Source of the DNA: Serinicoccus profundi
GTDB lineage: Bacteria > Actinomycetota > Actinomycetes > Actinomycetales > Dermatophilaceae
DNA: 64,000 nucleotides
Direction of reading: 5' to 3'
NCBI RefSeq assembly: GCF_008001015.1
Contig: NZ_CP042862.1
Location: 1,426,001 to 1,490,000 of the forward strand
The notes under the pieces were generated by a model, which saw only the letters and a list, made by a program, of their open reading frames with translations, ran no database searches and was not told the origin of the DNA. Made by a program: the position numbers and the translations under genes. Positions 1 through 64,000 of this stretch are shown here, in pieces (positions within the stretch are counted from its first letter, which is position 1; each line of letters starts with the position of its first letter).

Positions 1-1611
1 TGGGGCTACCTGCTCGGCGACGACGGCAGCGGGTATGCCATCGGTCGCGCCGGTCTCCGCGCCGCCCTGGAGTACCGCGACGGGCGCGGCGGGTCGTGCG
101 CGCTGGAGCGGGCTGCCCGGGCCCGGTTCGGTGACCTGGCGGGACTGCCCTCGACGATCCAGTCCGCGGAGCACCCGGCGCGCCTCGTCGCCTCCTTCGC
201 GCCCGACGTCGCCGCCGCGGCGCGGGAGGGCCATGAGGTCGCCGTGCGGATCTGGCGCGCCGCGGGCGAGGCGCTGGCGCACACGGCCGTGGCCTGCCGC
301 AACCAGCTGGGGTCCGACCTGCCGATCTGTCTGGCCGGGGGGCTCACCGCTGCCGAGGCGCTCCTCAGCGAGCCCTTCGCCGAGGTCGTCGGGGAGACCG
401 TCGTGGCGCCGTCCGGCACCGCGCTCGACGGCGCCGAGCAGCTGGCCCACGAGGCCTGGGCGGGTCGGGTCGACCCGGCCCTGGCCGGGCTGGTCACCCT
501 CGCGCGACGGGAGCGCGCGACTGCCCACGCTGACGCGGGGCAGGACGCTCCGGCCGGGTCCGCGCCGACCGACTGGACGCCACCCGAGTCCGCCTCGCCC
601 GATGATGCCCCGCCCGCGATTCCTGACGCTGCGGCGAGGGAGAGCGGGTCGCCGGAGGTGATCGGCGCCCTGGCCACCGAGGGCGTGCGGGAGGACCTGC
701 TCGATCTCGACGAGCGGCATACCGAGGACGTCCTGCGGGCGCTCTGGGAGGCGGAGGCGACCGTGGCCCCGGCCCTGCTCGGCGTGGTCCCGACTGTCGC
801 GGCCGCGGTGGACGACATCGCGCAGCGACTGCGCGGCGGTGGGCGCATGTTCTACCTCGGCGCGGGCACCCCCGGCCGCCTTGCTTTCGTCGATGCCTCC
901 GAGCTGCCGCCGACCTACGGCACCCCCGCAGAGCTGGTGCGGGCGCTGCCGGCCGGTGGGGTCGAGGCGATGGTGCGCGCCCGCGAGGGTGCGGAGGACG
1001 ACGGCCCGGCAGGGGCTGGCATGGTCCGTGAGGCCGGTGTCGGCCCGCAGGACGTCGTCGTCGGCATCAGTGCCTCGGGGCGGACGCCCTACGTCCTCCA
1101 CGGGCTCCGGGCCGCGGCCGAGGTGGGCGCGCTCACGGTGGCGGTGTCCAACAACGAGGGGGCCCGCGCCTCCACCGGGGTGGACCACGCCATCGAGGTC
1201 CCGACGGGGCCGGAGGTCATCAGCGGCTCGACCCGGCTCAAGGCGGGCACGGCGCAGAAGATGCTGCTCGTAGCGCTGTCGACGGCCGTGATGGTGCGCC
1301 TGGGCAAGACCCACGGGCCGTTCATGGTCGACATGCAGGCCTCCAACGTCAAGCTGCGCGACCGTGCCGTGCGCATGGTGCAGCGGGTCTCCGGCTGCGG
1401 GGCGGCGGAGGCCACCGCCGCTCTGGAGTCGGCGGGCTGGAGCACCAAGGTCGCGGTCGTGCAGCTGCTCGGGGGTATGCCGACCGACCAGGCCCGAGAG
1501 GCGCTCGCTCGAGGTGACGGCTCCGTGCGGGATGCCCTCGCTCGAGGTGACGGCTCCGTGCGGGACGCGCCGGTCCAGGACGCGCTAGCCCAGGACGGTG
1601 GCACGCGATGA
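1..1611 (+). CDS. murQ: GlcNAc/MurNAc kinase fused to MurNAc-6-phosphate etherase (MurQ); 5' end outside window
   Basis: Cytoplasmic peptidoglycan-recycling protein joining two enzymes. The BadF/BadG-type kinase would phosphorylate GlcNAc and/or MurNAc; MurQ removes the lactyl ether of MurNAc-6-P to give GlcNAc-6-P. The frame is open from base 1, so the kinase N-terminus lies upstream. Codons 1-170 are the C-terminal part of the ATPase fold (GDDGSGYAIG at codons 6-15, LAGGL near 111). Codons 171-220 are an Ala/Pro/Glu-rich linker. Codons 221-505 are a complete MurQ with GAGTPGR, DASELPPTYG (catalytic Glu), GISASGRTP and GSTRLKAGTAQK. There is no stop or new start between the domains. The tail carries a 33-bp duplication. 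It overlaps anmK by 4 bp (ATGA). Kinase specificity (GlcNAc, MurNAc or both) cannot be read from the sequence. Confidence 0.9.
   Translation, partial: WGYLLGDDGSGYAIGRAGLRAALEYRDGRGGSCALERAARARFGDLAGLPSTIQSAEHPARLVASFAPDVAAAAREGHEVAVRIWRAAGEALAHTAVACRNQLGSDLPICLAGGLTAAEALLSEPFAEVVGETVVAPSGTALDGAEQLAHEAWAGRVDPALAGLVTLARRERATAHADAGQDAPAGSAPTDWTPPESASPDDAPPAIPDAAARESGSPEVIGALATEGVREDLLDLDERHTEDVLRALWEAEATVAPALLGVVPTVAAAVDDIAQRLRGGGRMFYLGAGTPGRLAFVDASELPPTYGTPAELVRALPAGGVEAMVRAREGAEDDGPAGAGMVREAGVGPQDVVVGISASGRTPYVLHGLRAAAEVGALTVAVSNNEGARASTGVDHAIEVPTGPEVISGSTRLKAGTAQKMLLVALSTAVMVRLGKTHGPFMVDMQASNVKLRDRAVRMVQRVSGCGAAEATAALESAGWSTKVAVVQLLGGMPTDQAREALARGDGSVRDALARGDGSVRDAPVQDALAQDGGTR
1501..1566 (+). 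repeat. 33-bp tandem duplication, two copies, in frame in the MurQ tail
   Basis: Copies at 1501-1533 and 1534-1566 differ at only two third-codon positions. Each encodes ALARGDGSVRD, so the C-terminal tail after the MurQ fold contains the 11-residue unit twice. The unit length is a multiple of three, which keeps the frame. Confidence 0.95.
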
Positions 1612-2792
1612 TCGTCGTCGGTGTCGGCTCCGGCACGAGCGTCGACGGGATCGACGTCGCCGCGCTCGACCTCGAGCTCGACCACGAGGTGGTGCGAGCC
1701 CGCCTGCTGGGCTGCGACACGATGCCCTTCGACACGACTCTGCGCGAGGAGGTCCTCGCAGCCTTCCCGCCGGGGCAGGCCGGGATGCAGGAGGTGTGCC
1801 GCCTCGACACGCGCCTGGGTCAAGCGCTGGCGGAGGCGGTGGCGACCCTCGGGGTCGAGCTCGCCGGGGGAGCGCCCGACCTGGTCTCCTCCCACGGGCA
1901 GACGTTCTTCCACGACGTCGTCGACGGCGAGGTCGCCGGGACGCTCCAGCTGGGGCAGCCGGCCTGGATCGCCGAGCGCACCGGCGCGCCCGTCGTCTCC
2001 GACCTGCGCGTCGCCGACGTCGCGGCCGGGGGTCACGGAGCCCCGTTGGCGAGCACCTGGGACGCGCTGTGGCTCGGTGGCCGGGGGCACACCTGCGCCG
2101 CGCTCAACCTCGGCGGCATCGCCAACGTCACCATCGTGCCGCCGGAGTCCTCGGTCGGCGATGGGGTGCGGGCCTTCGACACCGGGCCGGCCAACGCGCT
2201 GGTCGATGCCGTGGTGGCCCGCCAGACCGGCGGCCGCTCGACCTTCGACGCGGACGGTGCGGGCGCCGCGGCGGGCCGCGTCGACGCCGACCTGCTGCAG
2301 GTCCTCATGGCCGACGGATACTACGCGCTCACCCCGCCCAAGACGACCGGCAAGGAGCACTTCCACCTCGGCCACGTCGACGACGCGCTCATGCGCCTGG
2401 GGCGCACGGTCGAGGGCGATGATCTGCTCGCCACCCTCACCGCGCTCACCGTCCGTACCGTGGCCGACGCCCTGCGTCCGGTCGGCGCCGCGGAGGTCGT
2501 CGTGAGCGGGGGAGGAGCCCGCAACCGCACGATGATGCAGGGCCTGCGGCGCGCGCTCCCCGGCGTGGACGTCGTGACCAGCGACGCGCACGGCATACCC
2601 GTCGACGCCAAGGAGGCGTGCCTTTTCGCCCTCCTCGGCTTCCTCACCTGGCACGGGGTGCCGGGCACGGTCGCCGGGGTCACCGGGGCGCGGCACGCTT
2701 GTCTCGCCGGTCGCCTCACCCCCGGCCTCGACCCGCTGCGACTGCCCGAGCCCGCTGCGTCCCGCCCGACCCGCCTGGAGGTGGTGCGCTGA
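1608..2792 (+). CDS. anmK: Anhydro-N-acetylmuramic acid kinase
   Basis: AnmK converts 1,6-anhydro-MurNAc to MurNAc-6-P, feeding the MurQ domain just upstream. The 394-residue product has the family's ATPase motifs: GVGSGTSVDGID at residues 5-16, LVSSHGQT near 92, LNLGGIANVT near 165, FDTGPANALVD near 190 and SGGGARN near 300. Length is normal for AnmK. The start is an ATG that overlaps the preceding stop (ATGA), and its own stop overlaps the nagB start by one base (TGATG), so the three genes are almost certainly one translationally coupled operon for wall-sugar salvage. Confidence 0.95.
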   Translation: MIVVGVGSGTSVDGIDVAALDLELDHEVVRARLLGCDTMPFDTTLREEVLAAFPPGQAGMQEVCRLDTRLGQALAEAVATLGVELAGGAPDLVSSHGQTFFHDVVDGEVAGTLQLGQPAWIAERTGAPVVSDLRVADVAAGGHGAPLASTWDALWLGGRGHTCAALNLGGIANVTIVPPESSVGDGVRAFDTGPANALVDAVVARQTGGRSTFDADGAGAAAGRVDADLLQVLMADGYYALTPPKTTGKEHFHLGHVDDALMRLGRTVEGDDLLATLTALTVRTVADALRPVGAAEVVVSGGGARNRTMMQGLRRALPGVDVVTSDAHGIPVDAKEACLFALLGFLTWHGVPGTVAGVTGARHACLAGRLTPGLDPLRLPEPAASRPTRLEVVR

Positions 2793-3577
2793 TGGAGGTG
2801 GTGATCCGTCCCGACCACGCCGACCTGGGTCGGCTCGCGGGCGAGGTGGTCGCCCGGCTGGTGGGTGAGCGGCCCCGCGCCGTGCTCGGGGTCGCGACGG
2901 GTTCCAGCCCCCGCCCCGTGTATGCCGACCTCGTCGCCCGGGTGCGGGCCGGCAGCCTGGACCTGTCGGGCGTGAGCACCTTCTCCCTGGACGAGTACGT
3001 CGGGCTGCCCGAGGGTCACCCGAGCAGCTACCGAGCCGAGATCAGGCGGGAACTCACCGACCTGGCGGGCATCCCGCCCGCTCAGGTGCACTCCCCGCAC
3101 GGAGACGCCGAGGACCTGCCGGCCGCGGCGGCCGCCTACGAGTCGCTCATCGCGCAGTCCGGCGGCGTCGACGTGCAGCTGCTGGGGCTGGGCAGCGATG
3201 GGCACATCGCCTTCAACGAGCCGGGGAGCTCGCTCGCGAGCCGCACCCGCATCAAGACGCTCACCCGGCGCACCCGCGAGGACAACGCGCGCTTCTTCGA
3301 CGGCGATGCCGACGCCGTGCCGACCCACTGCCTGACGCAGGGCCTGGCGACGATCCTGCAGGCCCGGCACGTCGTGCTGCTCGCCATGGGCGAGGGCAAG
3401 GCGCGGGCGGTGGCGGAGCTCGTCGAGGGCGCGGTGTCGGCGCGGTGGCCGGCGACGGTGCTGCAGTGGCACCCGCACGTCAGCGTGCTCATCGACGAGG
3501 CCGCGGCCAGTCGGCTGGAGCTCGCGGGCTACTACCGCGAGGCCTGGGCCAACAAGCCGGACTGGCAGGGGCTGTGA
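2792..3577 (+). CDS. nagB: Glucosamine-6-phosphate deaminase
   Basis: NagB deaminates and isomerises GlcN-6-P to fructose-6-P, passing salvaged wall amino sugars to glycolysis. The 261-residue product has GVATGSSP near residue 33, STFSLDEYVGLP (acid-base Asp) near 64, GLGSDGHIAFNEPGS near 134-148 and the TVLQWHPH segment near the end. I chose the ATG at 2792 because it sits in a TGATG overlap with anmK behind a GGAGGT Shine-Dalgarno (about 2777-2782); the longer in-frame extension is not family-like. No nagA is present in the window; it may lie upstream. It ends 4 bp from the convergent atoE-like gene. Confidence 0.93.
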   Translation: MEVVIRPDHADLGRLAGEVVARLVGERPRAVLGVATGSSPRPVYADLVARVRAGSLDLSGVSTFSLDEYVGLPEGHPSSYRAEIRRELTDLAGIPPAQVHSPHGDAEDLPAAAAAYESLIAQSGGVDVQLLGLGSDGHIAFNEPGSSLASRTRIKTLTRRTREDNARFFDGDADAVPTHCLTQGLATILQARHVVLLAMGEGKARAVAELVEGAVSARWPATVLQWHPHVSVLIDEAAASRLELAGYYREAWANKPDWQGL

Positions 3578-3581
3578 CCCT

Positions 3582-4940
3582 TCAGCCGGCCCCGAGGACG
3601 AGCAGCGCGGCGGCGAAGAGCACCCCGGTGGTGATGAGGATGACCGTGGTGTAGCCGAGGATGTCGCGGATCTTCAGGCCGGCGATGGCCAGCAGGGGCA
3701 GCGCCCAGAAGGGCTGGATCATGTTGGTCCACTGGTCGCCGTAGGCGATGGCCATCACCGCCACCTCGGGGTCGACGCCCAGGCTCTGGGCTGCCTCGAG
3801 CAGCACCGGCCCCTGCACCGCGATCTGCCCGCCGCCGGAGGGCACGAAGAAGTTGACGATGCCGGCGGAGAGGAAGGCGAGGGTGCCGAAGGTCGCCGGC
3901 GTCGAGATCGAGACCATCGCCTCGGACAGCACCGTGATGAGACCGGTGCCGGCCATGATGCCCATGATCCCGGCATACAACGGGAACTGCAGGAGGATCT
4001 CGCCGACGTTGGCCGCCGCCCGCTGCGTGAGCTCGATGATCTCGAAGGGGTTGCGCACGAGCAGCAGGCACAGGGTGAGGAAGGTCCAGTTGACGATGTC
4101 GAGGGTGACCGTGCCGCCGCCGCTGAAGTGGATGACGAGGTAGGCGAGCAGCAGGAGCCCCGGGATGAGCGTCAGCACCCGGGACGCGTCGAGCCGGTCC
4201 GCGGGGGTGGTCACGTCATACCGGATCTCGTCGTCGCTCATCCGGTGCTCAGGCATCTCGAGGATCTCGCTCGTGCCGCGCGGCGCCATGAGCGCGATCG
4301 TGCCCGCGACGACGATGACGGCCAGGACGGCGGTCACCATGTTCCACGTCGAGAAGGTCGTCTCGGTGATGGGCAACGTCTGGCCGAGCTGCTCGCTCAC
4401 GAAACTGTCCGGGGTGGCGGCGACGAGCGGGGCCGAGCCGGAGTAGCCCATGTGCCAGACGACCATGCCGGTGTATCCGGCGGCGACCAGCAGCGGGAAG
4501 TGGCGCGGTTCGCCGCGGCGTCGTCCCTCGGCAGCCACCTCCTTGGCGAGCAGCGCCCCGACGACCAGGCCGAGGCCCCAGGTGAACAGTCCGGCCACGC
4601 AGGTCACGAGGGCGACGAAGACGTAGGGCATCACCCGTCCGCTCGGCACGGCGGCGAGTCGCCGGAGTCCGGCGCGCACCGGCCCGGTGTTGGCCAGGAT
4701 GTAGCCCAGCAGGAGGATCAGCGCCATCTGCGTCATGAAGGCCAGCAGCCCGGACAGGCCGTCGCCCCAGGCGCGGACGACGTCCACGGGGCCGGCGTCG
4801 GTGAGGCCGAGGGCCGCCACCATGACCACGACGGTCAGGACGATCGCGAAGACCAGGGCCGAGGGGATGAAGCGCTCGACGACGGAGTTCAGCGGGCCCA
4901 TGGCTCGCTGGACACCGGTGCGGCTGGGGGACGTGCTCAT
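3582..4940 (-). CDS. atoE: AtoE-type short-chain fatty acid transporter
   Basis: Polytopic membrane carrier of the AtoE family (TIGR00366), thought to take up short-chain fatty acids such as butyrate or acetoacetate. The 452-residue protein has about a dozen hydrophobic segments; family-like stretches are FTWGLGLVVGALLAKEVA, the GYTGMVVWHMGYSGSAPL region near residue 150-170, FFVPSGGGQIAVQGP near 365, and DQWTNMIQPFWALPLL near the C-terminus. The ATG at 4940 is followed by a short soluble N-terminus. It stands alone, convergent with nagB. A TAACCT box at 4987-4992 (minus strand) could be its -10 element with a leader of about 40 bases. The substrate is inferred from the family only. Confidence 0.88.
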   Translation of the reverse strand: MSTSPSRTGVQRAMGPLNSVVERFIPSALVFAIVLTVVVMVAALGLTDAGPVDVVRAWGDGLSGLLAFMTQMALILLLGYILANTGPVRAGLRRLAAVPSGRVMPYVFVALVTCVAGLFTWGLGLVVGALLAKEVAAEGRRRGEPRHFPLLVAAGYTGMVVWHMGYSGSAPLVAATPDSFVSEQLGQTLPITETTFSTWNMVTAVLAVIVVAGTIALMAPRGTSEILEMPEHRMSDDEIRYDVTTPADRLDASRVLTLIPGLLLLAYLVIHFSGGGTVTLDIVNWTFLTLCLLLVRNPFEIIELTQRAAANVGEILLQFPLYAGIMGIMAGTGLITVLSEAMVSISTPATFGTLAFLSAGIVNFFVPSGGGQIAVQGPVLLEAAQSLGVDPEVAVMAIAYGDQWTNMIQPFWALPLLAIAGLKIRDILGYTTVILITTGVLFAAALLVLGAG

Positions 4941-5058
4941 GGGGACGGACCTCGGATCCTGGACGGCGGCGGGGGTTCTGGCCCGAAGGTTAACGCTCGC
5001 CAGGGTCGTGGTCCGGGAGGTCGCCCGGGTGTGTGCGGGGGTCAGGCCCGAGGGAGTC

Positions 5059-5412: not shown

Positions 5413-5470
5413 GGGATGGTCCTCTCGTCGGTGCGGCGTCGCCTGCGATTGCCGCGACGTGGGAAAGAAC

Positions 5471-5484: not shown

Positions 5485-5506
5485 TTCCATTCCACGGCCC
5501 GCTCCG

Positions 5507-5512: not shown

Positions 5513-5518
5513 GTCCGG

Positions 5519-6154
5519 GTGAGCACGTCGACGACCGCGGGACGCGTCCGGTCCACGCCCGATGAGGTGCACGAGCGGATCCTGGAGACGGCGGACCGGT
5601 TGTTCTACGCCGAGGGGGTCCACGCCGTCGGAATCGACCGGATCATCGCCGAGGCCGGTGTCGCCAAGGCCAGCCTCTACGGGCACTTCTCGACCAAGAG
5701 CGACCTCGTGGCGGCCTACCTGCGTCGACGCTCGCAGCGTTCCGGAGAGCGGCTGCGCGAGACCCTCGGGGGGCTGCCGGCCGGTGCGGCGCGGGATCGC
5801 GTGCTCGTCATCATGGAGGACCTCTGGGCCTGGCTGCACGAGGACACCTTCCGCGGCTGCCCCTTCATCAACGCGACCGCCGAGTATGCCGACCCCGACC
5901 ACCCGGTGCGGCGGGAGGTGGCCGCGCACCGGCGCGCCTTCGTGGCGCTCCTGCACGAGCAGGTGAGCGACCGGCCGGACGCCGACCTCCTCGCCGCCGC
6001 GTTGGCCCTGATCTACGACGGGACGCTGGTGGCGGCGCAGGTGGATGGCGCGGTGGCGGCGGAACGGACGTCCCGCCACCTCGTCGGCACGCTGCTGGAC
6101 CACGACGGCGCGACCCAGGACGTGCACGTGTCCAGGTCGGGGGAGAGGGCATGA
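5519..6154 (+). CDS. TetR-family transcriptional regulator
   Basis: Repressor-like protein of 211 residues. The N-terminal helix-turn-helix spans about residues 14-58 (ILETADRLFYAEGVHAVGID, then IIAEAGVAKASLYGHFSTKSDLV), followed by a helical ligand domain containing WLHEDTFRGCPFINATAEY near residue 105. The GTG at 5519 is chosen from the -10 box 6 bp upstream. It lies downstream of a palindrome shared with the divergent DsrE-like gene, so autoregulation is likely. Its stop overlaps the arr start (ATGA), putting the rifamycin-modifying enzyme in the same transcript. The ligand is not deducible. Confidence 0.9.
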   Translation: MSTSTTAGRVRSTPDEVHERILETADRLFYAEGVHAVGIDRIIAEAGVAKASLYGHFSTKSDLVAAYLRRRSQRSGERLRETLGGLPAGAARDRVLVIMEDLWAWLHEDTFRGCPFINATAEYADPDHPVRREVAAHRRAFVALLHEQVSDRPDADLLAAALALIYDGTLVAAQVDGAVAAERTSRHLVGTLLDHDGATQDVHVSRSGERA

Positions 6155-6585
6155 GCGAGCACTCCGCACCGGTGCCCTTCGAGGTCTACCAGCCCGGGGC
6201 ATACCTGCACGGCACGAAGGCAGACCTGCACCCCGGGGATCTGCTCGATGCCGGCCGCGAGTCGAACGTCGAGTTGGGGCGAGTGATGAACTACGTCTAC
6301 TTCACCGAGACCCTCGACGCGGCGACGTGGGGTGCCGAGCTGGCTGTGAGGGAGGGGCGGGGCCGGATCTACCTCGTCGAGCCGACCGGTGAGTTCGACG
6401 ATGATCCGAACGTCACCGACAAGCGCTTCCCCGGCAACCCGACCAGGTCCTACCGATCCCGCTCGCCGCTACGGGTCGTCGGCGAGGTGGCAGACTGGGC
6501 CGGGCACCCACCGGAGCAGGTGCAGGCGATGCGCGACGGGCTGGCTGAGCTGCGGCGGCGGGGGGATGCCGTCATCGAGGACTGA
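6151..6585 (+). CDS. arr: Rifamycin ADP-ribosyltransferase
   Basis: Arr enzymes transfer ADP-ribose from NAD+ to the C23 hydroxyl of rifamycins and so inactivate them. The 144-residue product is the normal length and matches the family almost end to end: GAYLHGTKADLHPGDLL near residues 16-32, SNVELGRVMNYVYFTETLDAATWGAELA split across residues 37-66, and RIYLVEPTGEF followed by DDPNVTDKRFPGNPTRSYRS near residues 75-105. It is translationally coupled to the upstream tetR gene (ATGA overlap). Chromosomal arr genes are common in soil actinobacteria; whether this one confers resistance depends on expression. Confidence 0.93.
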   Translation: MSEHSAPVPFEVYQPGAYLHGTKADLHPGDLLDAGRESNVELGRVMNYVYFTETLDAATWGAELAVREGRGRIYLVEPTGEFDDDPNVTDKRFPGNPTRSYRSRSPLRVVGEVADWAGHPPEQVQAMRDGLAELRRRGDAVIED

Positions 6586-7862: not shown

Positions 7863-7960
7863 GTGGACGGCATACCCCCTGACGGCGAGACCCGGGATCG
7901 TGTTCTCCTGGACCTCGTGACCCCGGCTCGGCCACGAGGCTTCACACGCGTGACCGGCCG

Positions 7961-8275
7961 ATGTCACCCCGACCAGGCCACGTGAGAAGGCAAAGGCGCC
8001 GGAAGAGGTTCAACTGGCCCGTCATCAGCGGATTCTTCGTCTTCTGCGCCCTGGTGTATGCCGCGCTGCAGATGGCCATGGGCGACCCGTGGTGGAAGTC
8101 TGTCCTGTCCGCCCTGCTGTGGGCTGCGTTCTTCGTCCCGGTCATGGTGTGGTTGATGGGGCGCACGAGTGCGATGGTGCGCCAGAGCGTGCGACACGGC
8201 TCGGAACCCCACCGCTCGCGGGAGCAGCAGGATGCGGCGCATCCGGCCGCAGCAGCTTGGGTCAACGCGGAGTAA
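7961..8275 (+). CDS. Small two-helix membrane protein
   Basis: Hypothetical protein of 104 residues: a strongly basic N-terminus (RRQRRRKR), two hydrophobic segments (WPVISGFFVFCALVYAALQM near residues 19-38 and VLSALLWAAFFVPVMVWLMG near 48-67) and a charged C-terminal tail. The pattern fits a small inner-membrane hairpin with both ends in the cytoplasm. There is no clear Shine-Dalgarno before the ATG, and the family is not recognised. It is divergent from the preceding membrane protein gene. Confidence 0.5.
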   Translation: MSPRPGHVRRQRRRKRFNWPVISGFFVFCALVYAALQMAMGDPWWKSVLSALLWAAFFVPVMVWLMGRTSAMVRQSVRHGSEPHRSREQQDAAHPAAAAWVNAE

Positions 8276-8985: not shown

Positions 8986-9266
8986 TTAGTGAAGGGCGCG
9001 CTGGCAGACCATCAAGGCGTTGCCGTCCGGGTCCTCGAACTGGACGAAGAAGACGCTGCCGATGTCGCGATGGGCGTCCAGGGCGATGCCGGGCCCGTCG
9101 TCGGTCGGGATGTCGAGGATCGTGTCGCCGTGCGAGGGGTGCCGGGCTCGAAACCCAGCACCTCGGCATACCACCGTGCGGACCTCGCGATGTCGCGCAC
9201 AGGGATGAAGACCTGCCCCACGTGTCGCCGGATGGGGGAACACTGACTGTCTGTCACGCACGTCAC
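8986..9266 (-). pseudogene. VOC (glyoxalase-like) protein gene split by a frameshift
   Basis: Two halves of one small VOC-fold protein lie in different frames. The first half (from about 9221 or 9266 down to about 9140) reads QVFIPVRDIARSARWYAEV and LGFEPG, the classic first VOC strand and helix. The second half (about 9140 to 8986) reads GDTILDIPTDDGPGIALDA and VFFVQFEDPDGNALMV, the matching C-terminal half. Adding one base between them restores a protein of about 85-95 residues. It is either a true single-base deletion or a sequencing error. It sits between the nucleotidyltransferase and topoisomerase genes. Substrate unknown. Confidence 0.7.
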
Positions 9267-11752: not shown

Positions 11753-11881
11753 GTGCTGGTGCTGCTCCTGGATGTGTCGGGTGTGTCGCTCGGGTGGTCA
11801 GGGCGCCCCGCCGTGGGCACGGGGCAGCAGGGTCGGTCCAATGTATGCCGTCGCACCGCGGGCGGGTCGGAGGCGCGAGGG

Positions 11882-19214: not shown

Positions 19215-19220
19215 ACGGTA
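19215..19220 (-). promoter_or_regulatory. -10 box TACCGT for the lipoprotein gene
   Basis: On the minus strand TACCGT ends 7 bp before the ATG at 19207, the leaderless spacing. It overlaps a GGTATGCC word. Confidence 0.5.
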
Positions 19221-19270
19221 TGCCGTTTCGCCCCTCTCCTACCGGGCGTCCGACCCTCCCTGTGGATAAC

Positions 19271-22761: not shown

Positions 22762-22829
22762 ACCCGGATCGTGGCACGCGGCTCCGACACGCCCCTGACC
22801 AAGGAGGCCCACGGTGGGATAGTGGGGGC

Positions 22830-32767: not shown

Positions 32768-32916
32768 CGCCCTGGGCATACCCGCTCGCATCCACCCGGG
32801 TCGATAGGGCAGAATCCCGCGCGGCGAGCGTGACGACCCCCGGGGCAGCGGGCACAAATTCGCAGGCCGCAGCGTTCACGCACGACGAGAGACCACGCAG
32901 AGGTGAAAGAGGCGAG

Positions 32917-38572: not shown

Positions 38573-41404
<2,832 letters not shown>

Positions 41405-51730: not shown

Positions 51731-52560
51731 GCAGCCACCTCGCCCGTCGACGGTCCGCGGCGTGGGCACGCCTGCTCGGCGCGCTGCTCGCCGCCGTGGT
51801 CATCCTCTTCCCGCTCTACTGGATGGTCGTCGTCGCCTTCTCCACCCGGTCCTCGCTCTCCGGCGGCGGGCTGCGGCTGTGGCCGGAGCAGGCCACCCTG
51901 GACAACTTCCGCCGGGTCTTCGAGGCCTTCCCCGTCCTGACGTGGTTCGGCAACTCCCTGGCGATCGCCCTGGTGACCTCGGTCATCATCGTGCTGGTCA
52001 ACCTGCTCGCCGGGTATGCCTTCGCGCACCTGCGCTTCCCGGGCTCGGGTGCGCTGCTGCTCGTGGCGCTGTCGACGCTCATGCTGCCGGTGCAGGTCAT
52101 CATGGTCGGCCTGTTCCGGCTCGTCACCGAGCTCGGGCTCTACGGCAGCTACTGGGCGGTGATCCTGCCGACGGCAGCCTCCGCCTTCGGAGTCTTCCTG
52201 GCCCGCCAGTTCATCCTCACCATCCCGCGCGAGCTCATGGAGGCGGCCCGCATCGACGGCGCGACGCACCTGCAGATCTTCTTGCGCATCGTGCTGCCAT
52301 TGTCGCGCCCTCTCATCGCGGTGCTCTTCTTCATGAGCATGCTGCAGACGTGGAACGACTTCGCCTGGCCGCTCATCGCGCTGCGGGACAACGCGCTCTA
52401 CACCCTGCCGGTGGGGCTGCTCTTCCTCCAGGGCCAGTTCGGTCCGGACTACGGCGCGACCATGGCCTTCGCCCTCATCACCGTCGCGCCGATGGTGCTC
52501 GTCTTCCTGCTGGCGCAACGCTGGTTCGTCCAGGGCTTCTCCCGCAGCGGCCTGCGATGA
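51727..52560 (+). CDS. Sugar ABC transporter permease 2 (MalG/UgpE-like)
   Basis: Inner-membrane permease of 277 residues with six predicted helices and the EAA loop [20 protein letters not shown] near 175-194. It completes the importer with the two genes upstream. The GTG start overlaps permease 1 (GTGA), and its stop overlaps the next gene's ATG (ATGA). Confidence 0.9.
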
Positions 52561-55376: not shown

Positions 55377-56237
55377 TCAGAGAGCCAGCCCGATGGCCTC
55401 GGCGAAGAGCGCGTCGCCGTCCGCGTCCACGCCGCGGGCACGGAACCACGTGGCGACGTTGACGCAGTCGCGGTGCAGCAGGTCCGCGCCGCGGGGGTTC
55501 GCCACCACATCGACCACCTGCGGAAGGTCGATGACGACGAGCGTCCCGTCGTGCACGAGGAGGTTGTAGGCAGAGAGGTCCCCGTGGGCCCACCCGAGCT
55601 CGGCGAGCTGCAGCACGACGGTCTGCGTCTGCTGCCACAGGTGTGCCGCCTCCCCTGTGTCCGGGCGCGCCTGGGCGAGGCGAGGGGCGGCCCTACCCCC
55701 GGGGTCCCCGATGAACTCCATGACGAGCTCCGTGCCGTCCAGGGACACCGGGTAGGGCACCGGGATCCCGGACGACCAGGCCCGGCACAGCGCCTCCCAC
55801 TCGGCGTACGCCCACCGTCCCGCGGCGACCTGCTGGCCGTAGGTGGTGCCCTTGGCGAGGGCGCGCTGGTCGCGGGAGCGGCGGACACCGCGGCCCTCGG
55901 CATACACCGTGCTGCGGTGGAAGGACCGGTGGTCGGCGTCACGGTAGCGCTTGGCGGCGAGCAGGCACGCCGCGTCCGCACCGGGGGTGGTGGCGGCGCG
56001 CTCGAGGAGGAAGACGTCGGCCTCCTTGCCGGTCTTGAGGACACCCAGCTCGGTGTCCACCGCCCCGGCGTCCTGGACGACCCAGGTGGGCACGGGTCCG
56101 GGCCCGCGGTGACCGGCGACGACCTGCCAGTAGGTCGTCAGCCGTTGGCCGGAGGGGAGGTCCTCGACCGCCTCCAGCGGGGTGTAGTCGATGACGAAGA
56201 ACGGGTCGATGTCGCCCGTCGGGTGCTGAGATGGCAC
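55377..56237 (-). CDS. RIO-family protein kinase
   Basis: Serine kinase-like protein of 286 residues. The ATP-binding KTGKEADVFLLE near 69-80 and the Lys in AAKRYRD near 96 (with the usual variation), catalytic HGDLSAYN at 218-225, and the metal-binding IDLPQ at 236-240 form the RIO1 pattern. Bacterial RIO kinases have no settled role. CAGGAGC lies before the ATG at 56237. It reads into the decayed siderophore locus, whose truncated end lies just downstream (55317). Confidence 0.87.
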   Translation of the reverse strand: MPSQHPTGDIDPFFVIDYTPLEAVEDLPSGQRLTTYWQVVAGHRGPGPVPTWVVQDAGAVDTELGVLKTGKEADVFLLERAATTPGADAACLLAAKRYRDADHRSFHRSTVYAEGRGVRRSRDQRALAKGTTYGQQVAAGRWAYAEWEALCRAWSSGIPVPYPVSLDGTELVMEFIGDPGGRAAPRLAQARPDTGEAAHLWQQTQTVVLQLAELGWAHGDLSAYNLLVHDGTLVVIDLPQVVDVVANPRGADLLHRDCVNVATWFRARGVDADGDALFAEAIGLAL

Positions 56238-56804: not shown

Positions 56805-58415
56805 TCAGGTGAGCGAGCGCTGCGCCTGCTCATCCTCGGGGATCTCGTCCTCGAGCCGCTGCAGGACCATCTTGCCGATGACGGCGAAGGCGGCGATGCC
56901 GGCGAGGACCGCCGCGAAGCCCACCCAGCCGCTGCCCGTGGCGGCGAAGACGGCATACCCGATGAGGGAGACGACCGCTCCGACGATCGCGTAGGGCAGC
57001 TGCGTGGTCACGTGCGTAATGACGTTGCACGCGGCACCGGTGCTGGACAGGATCGTCGTGTCGCTGATCGGTGAGCAGTGGTCGCCCCAGACGGCGCCGG
57101 CGAGCACCGCGCCGAAGGCCGCGAGCAGCAGCTCCGAGCCCCCGGAGACGTTGACCATGATGTCGCCCGCGATGGGCAGCAGGATCCCGAAGGAGCCCCA
57201 CGAGGTCCCGGTGGAGAAGGCCATCGCGCCGGCGAGGACGAACATGACCGGCACGAGCCACTGGGGCGCCATGTTGGCGCTCTCGACGAGGCCGCCGAGG
57301 TACTCGCCCGTCCCGAGCTCGCCGATGAGGGCGCCGAGCACCCAGGCCAGGAGCAGGATGTAGACCGCGGGCAGCATCGACTTGATCCCCTCCCACACCC
57401 CCTGGCCGAGGGTCGCGCCCGAGAACTTCGGGTTCTGCGCGGTGTAGCGGAAGTAGTAGTAGAGCGCTGCGGCCAGTCCGAGCACCCCGCCGTAGAGCAG
57501 GGCATCGGTCACCGAGGTGTTGGCGAGCAGGTCGATGACGTCCCAGCTGCCGCCGGCGGCATACCCCGTCCACACGATCCCGCCCAGGACGCCCACGACC
57601 AGCAGGAGGAAGGGCACGATGAGGGCCCGCTTGGCGCCCGGCTCGTGCGTCGGCAGGTCCTGGGCGAGCTCGCCGGGGATCTCCTCGGAGGCGTCGAAGG
57701 TCTGGCCCTCGGCGATGGCCCGGCGCTCCTCCTTGCGCATCGGGCCGATGTCCAGCTGGAGGAGGACGACGACCCAGACCAGCAGGATCGCCGAGATGGC
57801 GTAATAGTTCATGCCCGCGGCGCCGAGGAAGGCCTCGACGTCGCTCACCGCCAGGGTGGAGGTGGCGAGGATCGGAGCCATGATCCCGATGATGCTGGCG
57901 CCCCAGCTGGAGAAGGGCGCGAGCACGGCGACCGGGGCCGAGGTGGAGTCGATGAGGTAGGCGAGCTTGGCCCGGGCCACGTGGTGCCGGTCGGTGACCG
58001 GTCGCGCGACCTGGCCGACGGCGAGGGCGTTGAAGTAGTCGTCGATGAAGATGATGATGCCCAGCGCGGCGGCGAGCACCTGGGCCCCACGGCGCGTCCG
58101 TATGCGTTGGATCGCCCAGTCCGAGAAGGCCTGGCTGCCGCCGGACATCATGATGAGCGCCGCGATGACGCCGAGGGTGAGGGTGAAGACGAGGATGTAG
58201 ACGTAGGTCGTGTTGACCGCGCCGTCCGCCCAGAAGATGCCGGCGACGGAGGTGCCGATGAGGCGCAGCGTCTCCAGCGGGGCGAGGTCGGCCACGAGCA
58301 GCGCGCTCGCGAGCACACCCGCGCCGAGGCTGAGCAGCACCTTCTTGGTCCAGATCACCAGCACGATCGCCACGAGTGGCGGAAGGATCGTCAGGATCGG
58401 CGTCGACTCGGTCAT
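56805..58415 (-). CDS. NhaC-family Na+/H+ antiporter
   Basis: Polytopic carrier of 536 residues with 12 or more hydrophobic segments. Family features include ALGIIIFIDDYFNALAVGQVARPVTD near 120-145 (seen as two shorter runs), DSTSAPVAVLAPFSSWGA near 155-172, FSTGTSWGSFGILLPIAGD near 400, and WGDHCSPISDTTILSSTGA near 445. Members exchange protons for Na+ or carry related ions or acids. A GAGGAGG ribosome site lies 7 bp before the ATG. Single gene, convergent with the small monooxygenase. Confidence 0.9.
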   Translation of the reverse strand: MTESTPILTILPPLVAIVLVIWTKKVLLSLGAGVLASALLVADLAPLETLRLIGTSVAGIFWADGAVNTTYVYILVFTLTLGVIAALIMMSGGSQAFSDWAIQRIRTRRGAQVLAAALGIIIFIDDYFNALAVGQVARPVTDRHHVARAKLAYLIDSTSAPVAVLAPFSSWGASIIGIMAPILATSTLAVSDVEAFLGAAGMNYYAISAILLVWVVVLLQLDIGPMRKEERRAIAEGQTFDASEEIPGELAQDLPTHEPGAKRALIVPFLLLVVGVLGGIVWTGYAAGGSWDVIDLLANTSVTDALLYGGVLGLAAALYYYFRYTAQNPKFSGATLGQGVWEGIKSMLPAVYILLLAWVLGALIGELGTGEYLGGLVESANMAPQWLVPVMFVLAGAMAFSTGTSWGSFGILLPIAGDIMVNVSGGSELLLAAFGAVLAGAVWGDHCSPISDTTILSSTGAACNVITHVTTQLPYAIVGAVVSLIGYAVFAATGSGWVGFAAVLAGIAAFAVIGKMVLQRLEDEIPEDEQAQRSLT

Positions 58416-58509: not shown

Positions 58510-59301
58510 GTGGCTGTTTCCGAGCATCTCGGCACCGACGACGTCCTGCGGCTGCTGCAGGAGGTGGCCGAGGAGGTCATCACCCCACGCTTTCGGGCGC
58601 TGGCCGAGCACGAGATCTCCTCCAAGACGCACCCGGGTGACCTCGTCACCGTCGCCGACCGCGAGGCCGAGGTGCTCATCACCCGGCAGCTGCGCGCGGC
58701 ATACCCCGGGGCTGTGGTGCTGGGTGAGGAGGCGTTCGCCGACGACCCCACCAGCCTCGTCGCCTTCCGCGAGGCCGAGCACGCCTTCACCGTCGACCCG
58801 GTCGACGGCACCCGCAACTTCGTGCACGGCTCGCCCGACCACGCCGTCATGGTCGCGGAGACCCGCGCAGGACGCACGGTGCGGTCCTGGATCTGGCAGC
58901 CGCAGCACGAGCTGGCCTACGTCGCCGAGCTGGGCTCCGGCGCCACCCGCAACGGTTTGCGCCTGCCCGACCTCACTCCTGACTCGGACCCGGCGCACTG
59001 GCGGGTGCGCACGTCGGCCCGACGACGCATCGGGGAGCGGCTGGGCCCCCTCCCGCCGCTGGAGCTCAGCTGGGTGAGCTGCGGCATCGACTACCCGAAG
59101 CTCGCCGAGGGCGCCTGCGACGCGCTGGTCTACCACGGCACCCGGCCCTGGGACCACGTGCCCGGCAGCCTTCTCGTGAGCGAGGTCGAGGGAGTCGTGG
59201 GGTCGGTCGACGGGCAGGTCTACGCCCCGCGCGACGATCCGCGGGGCATCCTCGCGACCGGCGGAGCCGACGTCTACGACTGGCTGCGCCGCGAGGTCTG
59301 A
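58510..59301 (+). CDS. Inositol monophosphatase family protein (second copy)
   Basis: Mg-dependent phosphatase of 263 residues, distinct from the SuhB-like protein at 31892. Motifs: LGEEAFADDP near 72, VDPVDGTRNFVHGSPDHAVM near 95-114, and RPWDHVPGSLLVSE near 214 with the final metal Asp. Substrate could be inositol-P, histidinol-P or a nucleotide such as PAP. The GTG start is supported by family alignment only. Its 3' end overlaps the convergent DUF2304 gene by 28 bp. Confidence 0.88.
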   Translation: MAVSEHLGTDDVLRLLQEVAEEVITPRFRALAEHEISSKTHPGDLVTVADREAEVLITRQLRAAYPGAVVLGEEAFADDPTSLVAFREAEHAFTVDPVDGTRNFVHGSPDHAVMVAETRAGRTVRSWIWQPQHELAYVAELGSGATRNGLRLPDLTPDSDPAHWRVRTSARRRIGERLGPLPPLELSWVSCGIDYPKLAEGACDALVYHGTRPWDHVPGSLLVSEVEGVVGSVDGQVYAPRDDPRGILATGGADVYDWLRREV

Positions 59302-59786: not shown

Positions 59787-60470
59787 TCACTTGAGGATCG
59801 TGTCGATGAGGATGTTGACCGAGTTCATGAGCGACTGGCCCTTGGCCCGGCTGTAGTCGGTGTAGAGCACGTGCACGGGGTGCTCGGCCCAGGGCAACCG
59901 GGTGCGGCCGAGCTGCAGCACGATCTCGGTCGCGTGCGCCATACGGTTCTGACGCAGGTCCAGACGGGTCGCCGCGTCGCGCCGGATGACGCGCAGCCCG
60001 TTGTGGGCGTCGGTGAGCTTCATCCCGGTCTGCTGGTTGGTCAGCCACACGGCGGCCTTGAGCACGAGCTTCTTGAGCCGGCCCGGACGGGTGCGGTCAT
60101 CGAGAAAGCGGGAGCCGAAAACGATGGCCAGCTGCTCCTCCCGGGCCCGGCGCACCATCTCCGCGGCGTCCTGGGGCCGGTGCTGCCCGTCGGCGTCGAA
60201 GGTGACGAGGTATGCCGCGTCCGTCGCCTCGAGCACGTAGCGCATACCCGTCTGCAGCGCGGCCCCCTGGCCGAGGTTGAAGGGGTGCTGCACGACGACC
60301 GCACCGGCCGCCCTGGCGCGCTCCGCCGAGTCGTCGCTGCTGGCGTCGTCGACGCACACGACGTGCGGGAAGTGCTCCCGCGCCTCGTGCAGCACCGTCT
60401 CGATGACCCGCGCCTCGTCGAAGAGGGGGATCACCAGCCAGGCGTCCTCCTGCGCGCGCGTTAGAGTCAT
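59787..60470 (-). CDS. GT2-family glycosyltransferase
   Basis: Dolichyl/polyprenyl-phosphate-sugar synthase-like enzyme of 227 residues. The fold signature is WLVIPLFDEARVIETVLHE near 11-29, DDASSDDSAERAR near 42-54 (nucleotide-sugar), FDADGQHRPQDA near 89-100 (DxD-type metal site), and GSRFLDD near 117. It would place a sugar from a nucleotide onto a lipid carrier. The ATG at 60470 is set by GACAAT 6 bp upstream and avoids the long upstream reading. It pairs with DUF2304 and is divergent from the sugar-nucleotide genes. Confidence 0.88.
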   Translation of the reverse strand: MTLTRAQEDAWLVIPLFDEARVIETVLHEAREHFPHVVCVDDASSDDSAERARAAGAVVVQHPFNLGQGAALQTGMRYVLEATDAAYLVTFDADGQHRPQDAAEMVRRAREEQLAIVFGSRFLDDRTRPGRLKKLVLKAAVWLTNQQTGMKLTDAHNGLRVIRRDAATRLDLRQNRMAHATEIVLQLGRTRLPWAEHPVHVLYTDYSRAKGQSLMNSVNILIDTILK

Positions 60471-61122: not shown

Positions 61123-62243
61123 CCGAGCAGCCGATGATCCCCGCGGCCAAGCCGCTGATCGGGGAGGACGAGCGGGCGGCCGTGGACCGGGTGCTGCGCT
61201 CGGGGATGGTGGCGCAGGGCCCGGAGGTGGCGGCCTTCGAGGGGGAGTTCGCGGGGCAGCTAGTGGCTGGGCGCACGTGCGTGGCGGTCAACTCGGGGAC
61301 CTCGGGTCTGCACCTGGGGCTGCTCGCGTGCGGGATCGGTGCGGGCGATGAGGTGATCGTGCCGAGCTTCACCTTCGCCGCGACGGCCAACGCGGTCGCC
61401 CTGACGGGGGCGACGCCGGTGTTCGCCGACATCAGCCCGGACACCTTCAACCTCGACCCGGAGTCGGTGCGGGGGGCGTTGAGCGACCGGACGGCGGCGG
61501 TGATGCCGGTCCATCTCTACGGTCACCCTGCGGATGTCGAGGGGTTGCGGGCGGTGACCGCGGAGGCGGGGGTGCAGCTGTTCGAGGACGCCGCGCAGGC
61601 TCACGGGGCGACCTACCGCGGGTCGCCCGTGGGCAGCTTCGGGTCGTTCGCGATGTTCAGCCTGTACCCGACGAAGAACATGACCTCCGGCGAGGGCGGC
61701 ATGGTGTCCTGCGCCGACGAGGAGATCGCGCGGGGCATACGGCTGCTGCGCAACCAGGGGATGGAGAAGCAGTACGCCAACGAGGTCATCGGGCTGAACA
61801 ACCGGATGACGGACATCCACGCCGCGATCGGGCGCGTGCAGCTGACCAAGGTCGGGGCGTGGACGCAGGCGCGGCAGGCCAACGCGGCGTGGCTGGACGA
61901 GCACCTGTCGGGGGTGGCCGGGGTGGTGGTCCCGACGGTGCGGGAGGGCTGCACGCACGTCTACCACCAGTACACCGTCCGGATCGCCGGGGCCAGCAGC
62001 GAGCAGCGGGACGAGGTGGTGACGGCGCTGCGCGAGGAGCACCGGGTCGGGTGCGGGGTCTACTACCCCACCCCCAACCACGAGCTGGTCTCGCTGTCGC
62101 GCTTCGCCCCGGCCTGGGAGCTGCCGGAGACGGCGCGGGCCGCGGCCGAGGTCATCAGCCTGCCGGTGCACCCGTCGTTGACGCACGGTGACCTGGAGCG
62201 GATCGCCACCGCGGTGGAGTCGGTCGTGGGGGCAGGGGCGTGA
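61119..62243 (+). CDS. DegT/DnrJ/EryC1 (WbpE-like) sugar aminotransferase
   Basis: PLP-dependent nucleotide-sugar aminotransferase of 374 residues. It has NSGTSGLHLGLLACGIGAGD near 55-74, VIVPSFTFAATANAVALTGA near 76-95, VHLYGHPAD near 130, and the PLP lysine in SLYPTKNMTSGEGGM near 181-195, plus YHQYTVRI near 285. It would transaminate a 3-keto-uronic sugar nucleotide. It overlaps both neighbours by 4 bp (ATGA, GTGA), so synthesis of one sugar is strongly implied. Confidence 0.9.
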   Translation: MTEQPMIPAAKPLIGEDERAAVDRVLRSGMVAQGPEVAAFEGEFAGQLVAGRTCVAVNSGTSGLHLGLLACGIGAGDEVIVPSFTFAATANAVALTGATPVFADISPDTFNLDPESVRGALSDRTAAVMPVHLYGHPADVEGLRAVTAEAGVQLFEDAAQAHGATYRGSPVGSFGSFAMFSLYPTKNMTSGEGGMVSCADEEIARGIRLLRNQGMEKQYANEVIGLNNRMTDIHAAIGRVQLTKVGAWTQARQANAAWLDEHLSGVAGVVVPTVREGCTHVYHQYTVRIAGASSEQRDEVVTALREEHRVGCGVYYPTPNHELVSLSRFAPAWELPETARAAAEVISLPVHPSLTHGDLERIATAVESVVGAGA

Positions 62244-63271
62244 CCGGGGGCGCGGAGCGGACGGCGGCGCGCTCGGTGCTGCCCGAGGGCCCGATCAGGA
62301 TGGGTCTCATCGGGCTGGGCTCGATGGGCCGCCACCACGCGCGGGTGATCCGGGAGGTGGAGGGGATGGAGCTGGTCGCGGTGGCCGACCCCTCGGGTGA
62401 CAAGCACGGGGTGGCGGGCTCGTTGCCCGTCCTGGCGGACGTGGCGGGCCTGGTCGCGGAGGGGATCGACGCGGCGATGGTGGCGGTGCCGACCTATCTG
62501 CACGAGGAGGTCGCGCTGGCCCTGGCCGAGGCCGGGGTCCACACGATGGTCGAGAAGCCCATCGCCGCGACGGTCGAGTCGGGGCGCCGGGTCGCCCAGG
62601 CCTTCGACGCGGCCGGGCTGGTCGGCGCGGTGGGATACGTCGAGCGGTGCAACCCGGCGCTGCTGGAGATGCGGCGGCGGATCGCGGCCGGGGAGCTGGG
62701 GGAGGTCTTCCAGATCACCACCTCGCGCCAGGGGCCGTTCCCGGCGCGGATCGCGGACGTCGGCGTGGTGAAGGACCTCGCCACGCACGACATCGACCTC
62801 ACGGCCTGGATCGCCCGCTCGCCGTATGCCAGCGTCGCCGGTCAGGTCACCCACCGCTCGGGCCGCGAGCACGAGGACATGGTCGTCGCGACCGGTCGCC
62901 TCGCCAACGGCATCATCGTGTCGCACACGGTCAACTGGCTGAGCCCGTTGAAGGTGCGGGAGACGGTCGCGACGGGGGAGAAGGGCGCCCTCGTCGCCGA
63001 CACCCTCCACGGTGACCTCACCTTCGTGGCCAACGGCGACGTGCGCAGCGAGTGGGACCGCGCGGCGACCTTCCGCGGGGTCTCCGAGGGCGACTCGATC
63101 CGGTATGCCATCGCCCGCCGCGAGCCGCTGCGGGTCGAGCAGGAGAACTTCCGCGACGCCCTCTGGGGCCGCGAGGCCGACGTCGTCTCCATGGCCGAGG
63201 GCGTGCATACCCTCGAGGTCGTCGAGGCCATCCTCGAGTCCGCCGCGACGGGCCAGTCCCAGACGCTGTGA
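62240..63271 (+). CDS. Gfo/Idh/MocA (WbpB/WlbA-like) sugar-nucleotide dehydrogenase
   Basis: NAD(P)-dependent oxidoreductase of 343 residues. The Rossmann motif GLIGLGSMGRHHARV lies near 22-36, the family EKP in VEKPIAATV near 104-112, and a catalytic His in VKDLATHDIDL near 177-187. The WbpB/WlbA role is oxidation of C3 of UDP-GlcNAc-uronic acid to give the aminotransferase substrate. GTG start overlaps the aminotransferase stop. A short gene-free stretch with three tandem repeats follows (63288-63383). Confidence 0.87.
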   Translation: MTGGAERTAARSVLPEGPIRMGLIGLGSMGRHHARVIREVEGMELVAVADPSGDKHGVAGSLPVLADVAGLVAEGIDAAMVAVPTYLHEEVALALAEAGVHTMVEKPIAATVESGRRVAQAFDAAGLVGAVGYVERCNPALLEMRRRIAAGELGEVFQITTSRQGPFPARIADVGVVKDLATHDIDLTAWIARSPYASVAGQVTHRSGREHEDMVVATGRLANGIIVSHTVNWLSPLKVRETVATGEKGALVADTLHGDLTFVANGDVRSEWDRAATFRGVSEGDSIRYAIARREPLRVEQENFRDALWGREADVVSMAEGVHTLEVVEAILESAATGQSQTL

Positions 63272-63383: not shown

Positions 63384-63385
63384 GT

Positions 63386-64000
63386 ATGACTGACCGGGCG
63401 TCGCTCGTGGTTCTCGCGACCCGGATCTACGCCCCCGAGGCGGCGGCCGCGACCTTCCGTCTGGGTGCCCTCGTGCGTTCCCTGAGCCGCCGGGCGTCCG
63501 TGCGCGTGCTCACGACGACGCCTCCGCCCGCACTCCGACAACCATCTGCGACGCTCGGTGGGTCTGAGGGCGACCATCTGCGGCGCTCGGTCGGGGAGGG
63601 GGAGCGCGATCGGGAAGGTCGCTCGGTCGGGGAGGGGGTCTCGGTCGAGTCGGGATCGCCGGACCATCGGGTCGGGGTGAGTCGCTGGCCGGTGCTGCGG
63701 GACGCCACGGGGTATGTCCGCGGCTACCTGCCCTACCTGTCGTTCGACCTGCCGCTCGCGCTGCGGCTGCTGACCGGCCCGCGCCCCGACGTCGTCGTCG
63801 TCGAGCCACCGCCGACCACCGGCGCCGTGACCCGGGTCGCCCTGGCGGTGCGCTCGCTGGGGCGGGCGCCGATCCCCTACGTCTACTACGCCGCGGACAT
63901 CTGGTCCGACGCCACCGCCTCGATGGGAGCCCCACGGGCGGTGGTCTCCCTCATGCGTTCTGTGGAGCGGTTCGCGCTGCGGGGCTCCCGCGACGTGATC
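63386..64000 (+). CDS. GT4-family glycosyltransferase, 3' end outside window
   Basis: N-terminal part (205 codons) of a GT-B glycosyltransferase, open to the end of the window. The start LVVLATRIYAPEAAAATFRL and LSRRASVRVLTTTPPP is the first Rossmann strand-helix of WbuB-like enzymes; YVRGYLPYLSFDLPLALRLL, RPDVVVVEPPPTTG and YYAADIWSDATASMG follow. Between them is a low-complexity stretch (codons about 50-85) that corresponds to inverted copies of the 32-bp repeat, so repeat DNA has expanded in frame into a loop. The ATG at 63386 begins 2 bp after the last upstream repeat. It probably adds the sugar made by the trio upstream. Confidence 0.8.
   Translation, partial: MTDRASLVVLATRIYAPEAAAATFRLGALVRSLSRRASVRVLTTTPPPALRQPSATLGGSEGDHLRRSVGEGERDREGRSVGEGVSVESGSPDHRVGVSRWPVLRDATGYVRGYLPYLSFDLPLALRLLTGPRPDVVVVEPPPTTGAVTRVALAVRSLGRAPIPYVYYAADIWSDATASMGAPRAVVSLMRSVERFALRGSRDVI
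63539..63639. repeat. Inverted and degenerate repeat copies inside the GT4 gene
   Basis: 63539-63564 and 63571-63596 are reverse-complement copies of the intergenic unit (core ACCATCTGCGACGCTCGGT). A further partial copy, CGCTCGGTCGGGGAGGGGG, occurs at 63584-63602 and again at 63621-63639. All are within the reading frame and keep it open. Confidence 0.85.

Follow-up and report, generated by a model that had tools for sequence, protein, structure and literature searches.

The 64,000-nucleotide stretch of the Serinicoccus profundi genome (Dermatophilaceae; contig NZ_CP042862.1, positions 1,426,001 to 1,490,000), called the window here, is densely marked by a short DNA word with the core GTATGCC, which is a DNA-level signal produced by selection or by a process acting on DNA and not on codons. 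It is proposed that this word, in the form GTATGCCG (word A), is a self-recognition word, most likely for DNA uptake, a reading to which we give about an even chance. The window holds 48 copies of GTATGCC (27 forward, 21 reverse), whereas a third-order Markov model predicts 6.6 and dinucleotide shuffles 2.3, with a maximum of 7 among 100 shuffles. The shorter TATGCC/GGCATA, for which a preliminary description of the window had estimated about 50 copies, occurs 54 times versus 9.0 expected from the third-order model, an enrichment far stronger than was then thought. The whole genome is a single contig of 3,475,711 bases, in which GGTATGCC is found 858 times forward and 837 times in reverse, or 1,695 times, and its reversed-letter control 24 times (13 and 11); word A itself reaches 1,901 copies in the 3.48 Mb. 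Markov or dinucleotide composition is rejected as the cause, since the observed counts lie far over both expectations, and the third-order model also fails to account for the count in a larger sample of the same genome (464 kb, 420 genes called with a simple home-made codon model).

The unit is longer than GTATGCC/GGCATAC, the enriched word named in the preliminary description. G stands 5' of GTATGCC in 33 of the 48 window copies and 3' of it in 36, and among the 327 copies in the 464-kb sample the preceding base is G in 68% and the following base in 78%, after which mostly C or T is found; the real unit is therefore nearer GGTATGCCG, the form in which word A mostly occurs in this genome. GGTATGCCGT stands at 73 times the third-order Markov prediction in the same sample. 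Both GTATGCCG and CGAAGGGGG, a word of related genera described below, are non-palindromic, and the word is an 8-9-mer. The near-palindrome GGYATRCC was considered as the unit and discarded: GGCATGCC is present only 18 times in the 464 kb versus 32-54 expected, and a palindrome is therefore not favoured.

Enrichment in all reading frames and between genes, as claimed from the window alone, holds in the 464-kb sample. GTATGCC occurs 264 times in coding DNA versus 20.6 times when synonymous codons are shuffled (40 shuffles), and all six coding phases are raised 6 to 33 fold over this null, one of them, Val-Cys-Arg, on 3 copies only, a number also reached in one of the 40 shuffles. Intergenic DNA contains 58 copies versus about 4 expected, and 6 of the 48 window copies lie outside called genes or on a gene edge. 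Tyrosine codons are TAT in 129 of 140 cases in the context G-TAY-GCC-G versus 170 of 2,194 when followed by a codon other than GCC (odds ratio about 140). Where word A could be spelled in coding DNA without altering the protein, nearly half of the placements are filled: 210 of 478 in this genome and, in four further genomes with word A, 79 of 157. None of the 112 such placements in genus g2 or of the 131 in sampled stretches of genera g52 and g61, all of which lack word A, is filled. There are hints that protein sequence also bends toward the word: Arg-His-Thr, its reverse-strand spelling, is found 31 times versus 15 expected in S. profundi (2.09), the ratio being 1.22 for the other set with word A and 0.75-0.99 for three sets that lack it, and the observed/expected ratio of Tyr-Ala is 1.27, 1.15 and 0.94-1.08, respectively. 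The frequencies of Gly-Ile and Met-Pro, dipeptides of other phases, show no such contrast between sets with and without word A.

The most frequent phase is Tyr-Ala (TAT-GCC) with 159 of the 264 coding copies, which is what codon usage, amino-acid composition or mutation bias alone might offer as an explanation of the word. We give this virtually no chance, for the codon-shuffle result already refutes a codon-usage origin, the remaining phases and intergenic DNA are enriched too, the TAT preference falls away where GCC does not follow, and other genera carry different words. Enrichment is likewise not confined to one codon frame. GTACGCCG is depleted in coding DNA (17 versus 60.6 in the codon-shuffled null), as a C-to-T conversion would predict. 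A single-step C-to-T conversion was nevertheless rejected as the origin of the word, as the chosen G at position one and the two-base jumps between CTACGCCG and GTATGCCG require more. Because several coding phases and intergenic DNA are enriched, and because of the conservation, the orientation-dependent spacing and the genus-specific words set out below, the suggestion in the preliminary description that selection or a process acts on DNA is borne out.

Word A is symmetric between strands, and neighbouring copies avoid facing the same way. No placement of the origin yields a replication-strand bias among 338 copies, the best one (terminus opposite) giving 0.538 co-oriented versus a random mean of 0.550, in line with the earlier remark that no strong strand preference is seen; this lack of bias argues against signals of the KOPS and Chi types. 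The copies are spaced slightly evenly (coefficient of variation 0.90 versus 1.02, 3% of nulls being equally low), and neighbours less than 100 bp apart number 9 versus 22.4 +/- 4.8 expected, a shortage found mostly among same-facing copies. Pairs up to 300 bp apart comprise 13 same-facing and 35 opposite in S. profundi, whereas 399 other 7-mers of similar abundance give a mean of 57% same-facing (5th percentile 43%, minimum 26%). Within 300 bp, three related genomes have 8 same-facing and 39 opposite pairs, and another 12 word-A genomes, all but one from other genera, have 9 and 33; in each of these two sets 1 of about 300 null words is equally low. The related genomes share sites, and their orientation figures are therefore not fully independent. 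Genes show the effect (16 same-facing versus 31 opposite pairs less than 500 bp apart), and so does the DNA outside genes (10 versus 33). Direct-repeat slippage could also produce such avoidance, which null words do not, however, show. These results suggest that word A is read in one direction over a few hundred bases: a same-facing second copy nearby would be dispensable, which points to a one-directional reader.

The distribution of word A was followed through 186 genomes of the host family, tallied by absolute density in copies per Mb with rounded genome sizes; most other genomes were sampled by 20-120 kb with home-made gene calls, and the locus-based word counts draw on 15 of 80 named loci. 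Of the 186, 108 have GTATGCCG at more than 100 copies per Mb, with a maximum of 4,724 copies in G155; in another 12 the density is about 44-100 per Mb, and the remaining 66 fall below this. None of 111 sampled genomes from other families of the order has more than 167 copies, and none of those with at least 10 exceeds its reversed control more than about 4-fold; within this order, the only one searched, word A is seen only in the host family. The reversed control is inflated in genera with C before the word, which we infer is caused by GCCGTATG overlapping the word itself. Flanks vary by clade, G preceding the word in Serinicoccus, C or T more often in G014, G006 and G010, and CGTATGCCGC being the form in G158.

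Several of the genomes with little word A carry a word of their own. Word B, CGAAGGGGG, has 797-1,939 copies in all 16 g52 and both g61 genomes and 13-74 in the other 48 tested. Word C, GTACGGCGT, has 949 copies in G140 (control 44), 625 in G069, 347 in G071, 255-354 in three g60 genomes and 299 in G059, versus 21-143 in the other 38 of 45 tested. Word D, GGATGCCG, occupies in G201 43 of the 133 coding placements open to it, versus 5-12% in other sets, and 60 kb contain 58 copies versus 7.8 expected. Genus g2 lacks word A, and no comparably enriched word was found in 120 kb of its member G184, nor in 20 kb of G022; the other genera low in word A are represented by 20 kb at most. When GTATGCCGT, GGATGCCGG, GTACGGCGT and CGAAGGGGG are superposed, all four have A at the third position and G at the fifth and eighth, a pattern compatible with one recogniser of drifted specificity; word B is only remotely alignable, and its agreement with the other words may be due to chance.

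Several weaker or odd cases were recorded in the same survey. CGATGCGG is a weak candidate in G139 (42 versus 10.8, with 1 intergenic copy), and GGACGCGT is mildly enriched in G206 (L194-L198, L222; 43 versus 11.5), perhaps as a further dialect, which is also weak. In G097 (L207, L208) 11 of the 12 copies in 40 kb share a longer sequence close to GTATGCCGCTGRGC and 11 of 12 lie outside gene calls; this may be either a dialect of greater length or a dispersed element. G033 (L213, L214; 18 versus 2.3) and Flexivirga (L094; 10 versus 0.6) show enrichment of a sister form, GTATGACG, in addition to GTATGCCG, perhaps two dialects within one genome. The palindrome CGACGTCG, possibly a HIP-like word, is enriched over codon-shuffled nulls in Rothia (L111, L116; 43 versus 12.3) and in Kocuria (L102, L109; 26 versus 4.2, with poor gene calling there).

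The copies are conserved beyond expectation. In one-way comparisons with eight related species, 84 of 131 word copies of S. profundi are intact versus 41.1% of anagram words, and at 25 of the 51 distinct sites the word is intact in all alignable relatives. A 14-genome alignment of one 20-kb region contains 43 word sites; at six of them the 7-mer is present in 9 to 12 genomes, and at 19 the word is found in one genome only, partly owing to alignment gaps. At one aligned site six genomes carry CGTATGCCG and five carry CCTACGCCG, forms separated by two changes between which no intermediate was seen; another site has an intermediate (7 TGTATGCC, 2 TGTACGCC). Among 61 ungapped comparisons, counted in both directions, in which only one side has the word, 35 (57%) show at least two differences, versus 45% among controls. 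Above-average conservation has been reported for the Neisseria uptake sequence, and over-large jumps at its sites have been interpreted as arrival via recombination (PMC2397512). Word density shows no overall correlation with GC content in the S. profundi genome. One 20-kb stretch (L003, genome positions 360001-380000) is word-poor, with 3 copies or 1.5 per 10 kb versus an average of about 7; this single stretch, which carries genes for a Mutator-family transposase, cation efflux, a P-type ATPase and cytochrome c assembly, is possibly acquired DNA.

In the explanation we favour, GTATGCCG would be the local dialect of a family-wide self-recognition word, seemingly read one way. A surface or membrane DNA receptor, together with a Tad (Flp) pilus and ComEA-ComEC, would favour word-bearing DNA, which would be taken in from the word in a single direction; relatives' word-bearing fragments would recombine more often, so that the word would accumulate and be retained, and drift or replacement of the receptor's specificity would give each genus its own word. 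The existence of the receptor, the connection with uptake and the drive or selection that led to the accumulation are our inferences. An uptake-type word was among the candidates of the preliminary description, and it is the best fit of these, short of proof. In S. profundi a comEA-like gene (TIGR01259, E 1.8e-24, below cut-off) adjoins comEC (TIGR00361, above cut-off), the pair being situated between leuS and a LysR-type gene. The ComEC domain occurs in 180 of 186 family genomes, ComEA and ComEC were found in 26 and 27 of 29 such loci (home-made gene calls), and TadE is present in 28 of 28 genomes.

A number of observations weigh against this proposal. PilM, a marker of the type IVa pilus, was found in only 4 of 76 genomes (3 above cut-off; ComP was not searched), and a ComP-type receptor on a type IVa pilus is therefore unlikely; no receptor was found. 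All 12 g2 genomes retain the ComEC domain despite lacking word A, the two inspected also retain ComEA and TadE, and none of ComEC, ComEA, TadE, PilM and RecC, tried as separators, divides genomes with the word from those without. The excess of multi-base differences over controls is mild. Word A is not clearly paired into terminators in the S. profundi sample, where 2 convergent pairs lie 27-36 bp apart. Word B has 8 same-facing and 15 opposite pairs within 300 bp, of which seven opposite pairs are hairpin-like, and with these set aside no orientation effect is left; they are seven close inverted CGAAGGGG pairs, potential hairpins of the kind reported at terminators for uptake words, in about 203 kb of g52 and g61 (L186, L225, L226, L088). 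Natural transformation in the host family is not reported among the literature matches listed. We know of no published polarity of uptake sequences; an orientation bias of such sequences within genes has been described (PMC2346458). The wider set of matches listed, whose coverage leaves out most subscription journals, contains no report of this word or of any uptake word in Actinobacteria. Competent bacteria without an uptake word exist, and com and tad genes without the word therefore neither contradict nor support uptake.

Other directional or genome-wide signals have to be weighed against uptake. A Chi-like signal, at which a helicase-nuclease meeting the word from one side stops degradation and starts recombination, so that self DNA is protected and repaired, would suit a non-palindromic word whose same orientation is avoided among neighbours over a few hundred bases, Chi sites being themselves non-palindromic and directional. 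Chi-type words also drift among related bacteria and mark self DNA. We nevertheless hold this reading to be unlikely: Chi in E. coli has a strong strand bias, of which word A shows none for any origin; RecC, the Chi-reading subunit, was found in 20 of 32 genomes and not in the other 12, which include the word-A genomes G064, G097, G155, G135 and G033 (AdnAB was not searched); and near-half filling of neutral sites looks, in our opinion, too strong for a repair signal. The slightly even, genome-wide spacing and the rarity of close pairs would also be compatible with binding sites of a chromosome-organising or segregation protein of the KOPS, AIMS or nucleoid type. Strand bias toward the terminus is a feature of KOPS and AIMS, whereas no origin choice gives such a bias in S. 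profundi, and replacement of the word between genera would be odd for an essential segregation system; the segregation signal entertained in the preliminary description is therefore disfavoured, and we rate this class of explanation as very improbable.

A methylation or strand mark similar to HIP1 of cyanobacteria, in which the word is recognised by a methyltransferase and its copies are made and kept through methylation-dependent repair, is improbable as well, though a shade less so. HIP1 and the alternate HIPs reach similar or higher densities, are swapped for another word in some lineages and generally have a matching methyltransferase (PMC4390886), and marking of one strand would favour opposite-facing neighbours, as seen for word A. 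The HIPs are palindromic and methyltransferase-linked, whereas the words of this family are non-palindromic, and a single C-to-T process cannot account for the G chosen at the first position. The published HIP model moreover requires MutS/MutL, whereas MutS_I was found in 0 of 20 genomes, and the MutS-directed form of the repair bias raised in the preliminary description is therefore disfavoured; NucS repair, as described in M. smegmatis (PMC11551767; nucS was not searched here), involves limited resection, short relative to the word spacing.

The exact copies in the window are collected in Table 1. Ten of the twelve positions quoted in the preliminary description were correct within two bases; the other two are marked. 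A protein encoded at positions 22656-25496 of the window combines an acetyltransferase-like region with one of the acyl-CoA ligase (ADP-forming) type.

Table 1. The 48 exact matches to the 7-mer GTATGCC on both strands of the window (window coordinates).
Feature	Position	Strand	Basis
GTATGCC copy	33..39	+	exact match
GTATGCC copy	716..722	-	exact match
GTATGCC copy	1475..1481	+	exact match
GTATGCC copy	2592..2598	-	exact match
GTATGCC copy (preliminary description: 2927)	2920..2926	+	exact match
GTATGCC copy	3972..3978	-	exact match
GTATGCC copy	5884..5890	+	exact match
GTATGCC copy	6198..6204	-	exact match
GTATGCC copy, intergenic or gene edge	7869..7875	-	exact match + gene calls
GTATGCC copy, intergenic or gene edge	8056..8062	+	exact match + gene calls
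GTATGCC copy	9165..9171	-	exact match
GTATGCC copy, intergenic or gene edge (preliminary description: 11838)	11843..11849	+	exact match + gene calls
GTATGCC copy, intergenic or gene edge	12033..12039	-	exact match + gene calls
GTATGCC copy	13485..13491	+	exact match
GTATGCC copy	14370..14376	+	exact match
GTATGCC copy	14585..14591	-	exact match
GTATGCC copy, intergenic or gene edge	19218..19224	+	exact match + gene calls
GTATGCC copy	20388..20394	-	exact match
GTATGCC copy	20699..20705	+	exact match
GTATGCC copy	22234..22240	-	exact match
GTATGCC copy	24698..24704	+	exact match
GTATGCC copy	26800..26806	+	exact match
GTATGCC copy	29833..29839	-	exact match
GTATGCC copy	32239..32245	+	exact match
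GTATGCC copy, intergenic or gene edge	32775..32781	-	exact match + gene calls
GTATGCC copy	33457..33463	+	exact match
GTATGCC copy	33711..33717	-	exact match
GTATGCC copy	36357..36363	+	exact match
GTATGCC copy	37409..37415	+	exact match
GTATGCC copy	37649..37655	+	exact match
GTATGCC copy	37807..37813	-	exact match
GTATGCC copy	40978..40984	+	exact match
GTATGCC copy	43509..43515	+	exact match
GTATGCC copy	44470..44476	+	exact match
GTATGCC copy	44787..44793	-	exact match
GTATGCC copy	46477..46483	-	exact match
GTATGCC copy	46693..46699	+	exact match
GTATGCC copy	50354..50360	+	exact match
GTATGCC copy	51634..51640	+	exact match
GTATGCC copy	52014..52020	+	exact match
GTATGCC copy	55899..55905	-	exact match
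GTATGCC copy	56952..56958	-	exact match
GTATGCC copy	57558..57564	-	exact match
GTATGCC copy	58698..58704	-	exact match
GTATGCC copy	60210..60216	+	exact match
GTATGCC copy	61734..61740	-	exact match
GTATGCC copy	62824..62830	+	exact match
GTATGCC copy	63103..63109	+	exact match

We consider it slightly more probable than its contrary that the words of this family form a directional genome code unlike any described to our knowledge. A single evolving recogniser would read such words in one direction within roughly half a kilobase, and its target would have changed from genus to genus by drift or exchange; the hosts are Gram-positive bacteria that mostly lack the type IVa pilus marker, lack MutS and often lack RecC. 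If so, the code would be either the first uptake-sequence system beyond two Gram-negative families, served by Tad pili, or a novel type of directional mark used in processing self DNA. According to a 2016 review, sequence-specific DNA uptake is found in two Gram-negative families, the Pasteurellaceae and the Neisseriaceae (PMC5031613). If Actinobacteria provided a third, independent case, with several dialects and one or more near-complete word swaps among many sequenced species, it would be a natural experiment on how such words originate, spread and change, and would bear on whether they limit gene exchange between genera. If the word does not serve uptake, it is an undescribed signal at about 1,900 sites that shifts codon preference about 140-fold in odds.

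Word A resembles uptake sequences in density, in its non-palindromic 8-9-mer form, in strand symmetry and in its use in both coding and intergenic DNA; it matches them on most testable anatomical features except pilus type, and the orientation effect is an extra. The DNA uptake sequence (DUS) of the Neisseriaceae is likewise a short non-palindromic word with hundreds to thousands of conserved copies (PMC3630211, PMC2397512), about 900 to 5,900 per genome, with dialects around a shared core and some relatives without any (PMC3630211). In contrast to that system, the host here is a high-GC Gram-positive bacterium in whose family the type IVa pilus marker is mostly absent, uptake is only proposed, g52 and g61 have a very different word, and same-facing word-A neighbours are avoided; the letters ATGCCGT common to the Neisseria word and word A are probably a coincidence. 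The uptake signal sequence (USS) of the Pasteurellaceae is also a word of nine bases, and the review gives its receptor as unidentified at that date (PMC5031613); the USS word and phylum are unrelated, and uptake is established for USS and proposed for word A. The actinobacterium Micrococcus luteus requires Flp/Tad pili for transformation and has comEA and comEC homologues (PMC6370729), both gene sets being present in the host family as well. M. luteus is not linked to an uptake word in the available part of that account (PMC6370729), and the phrase 'uptake sequence' occurs 0 times in PMC4322843.

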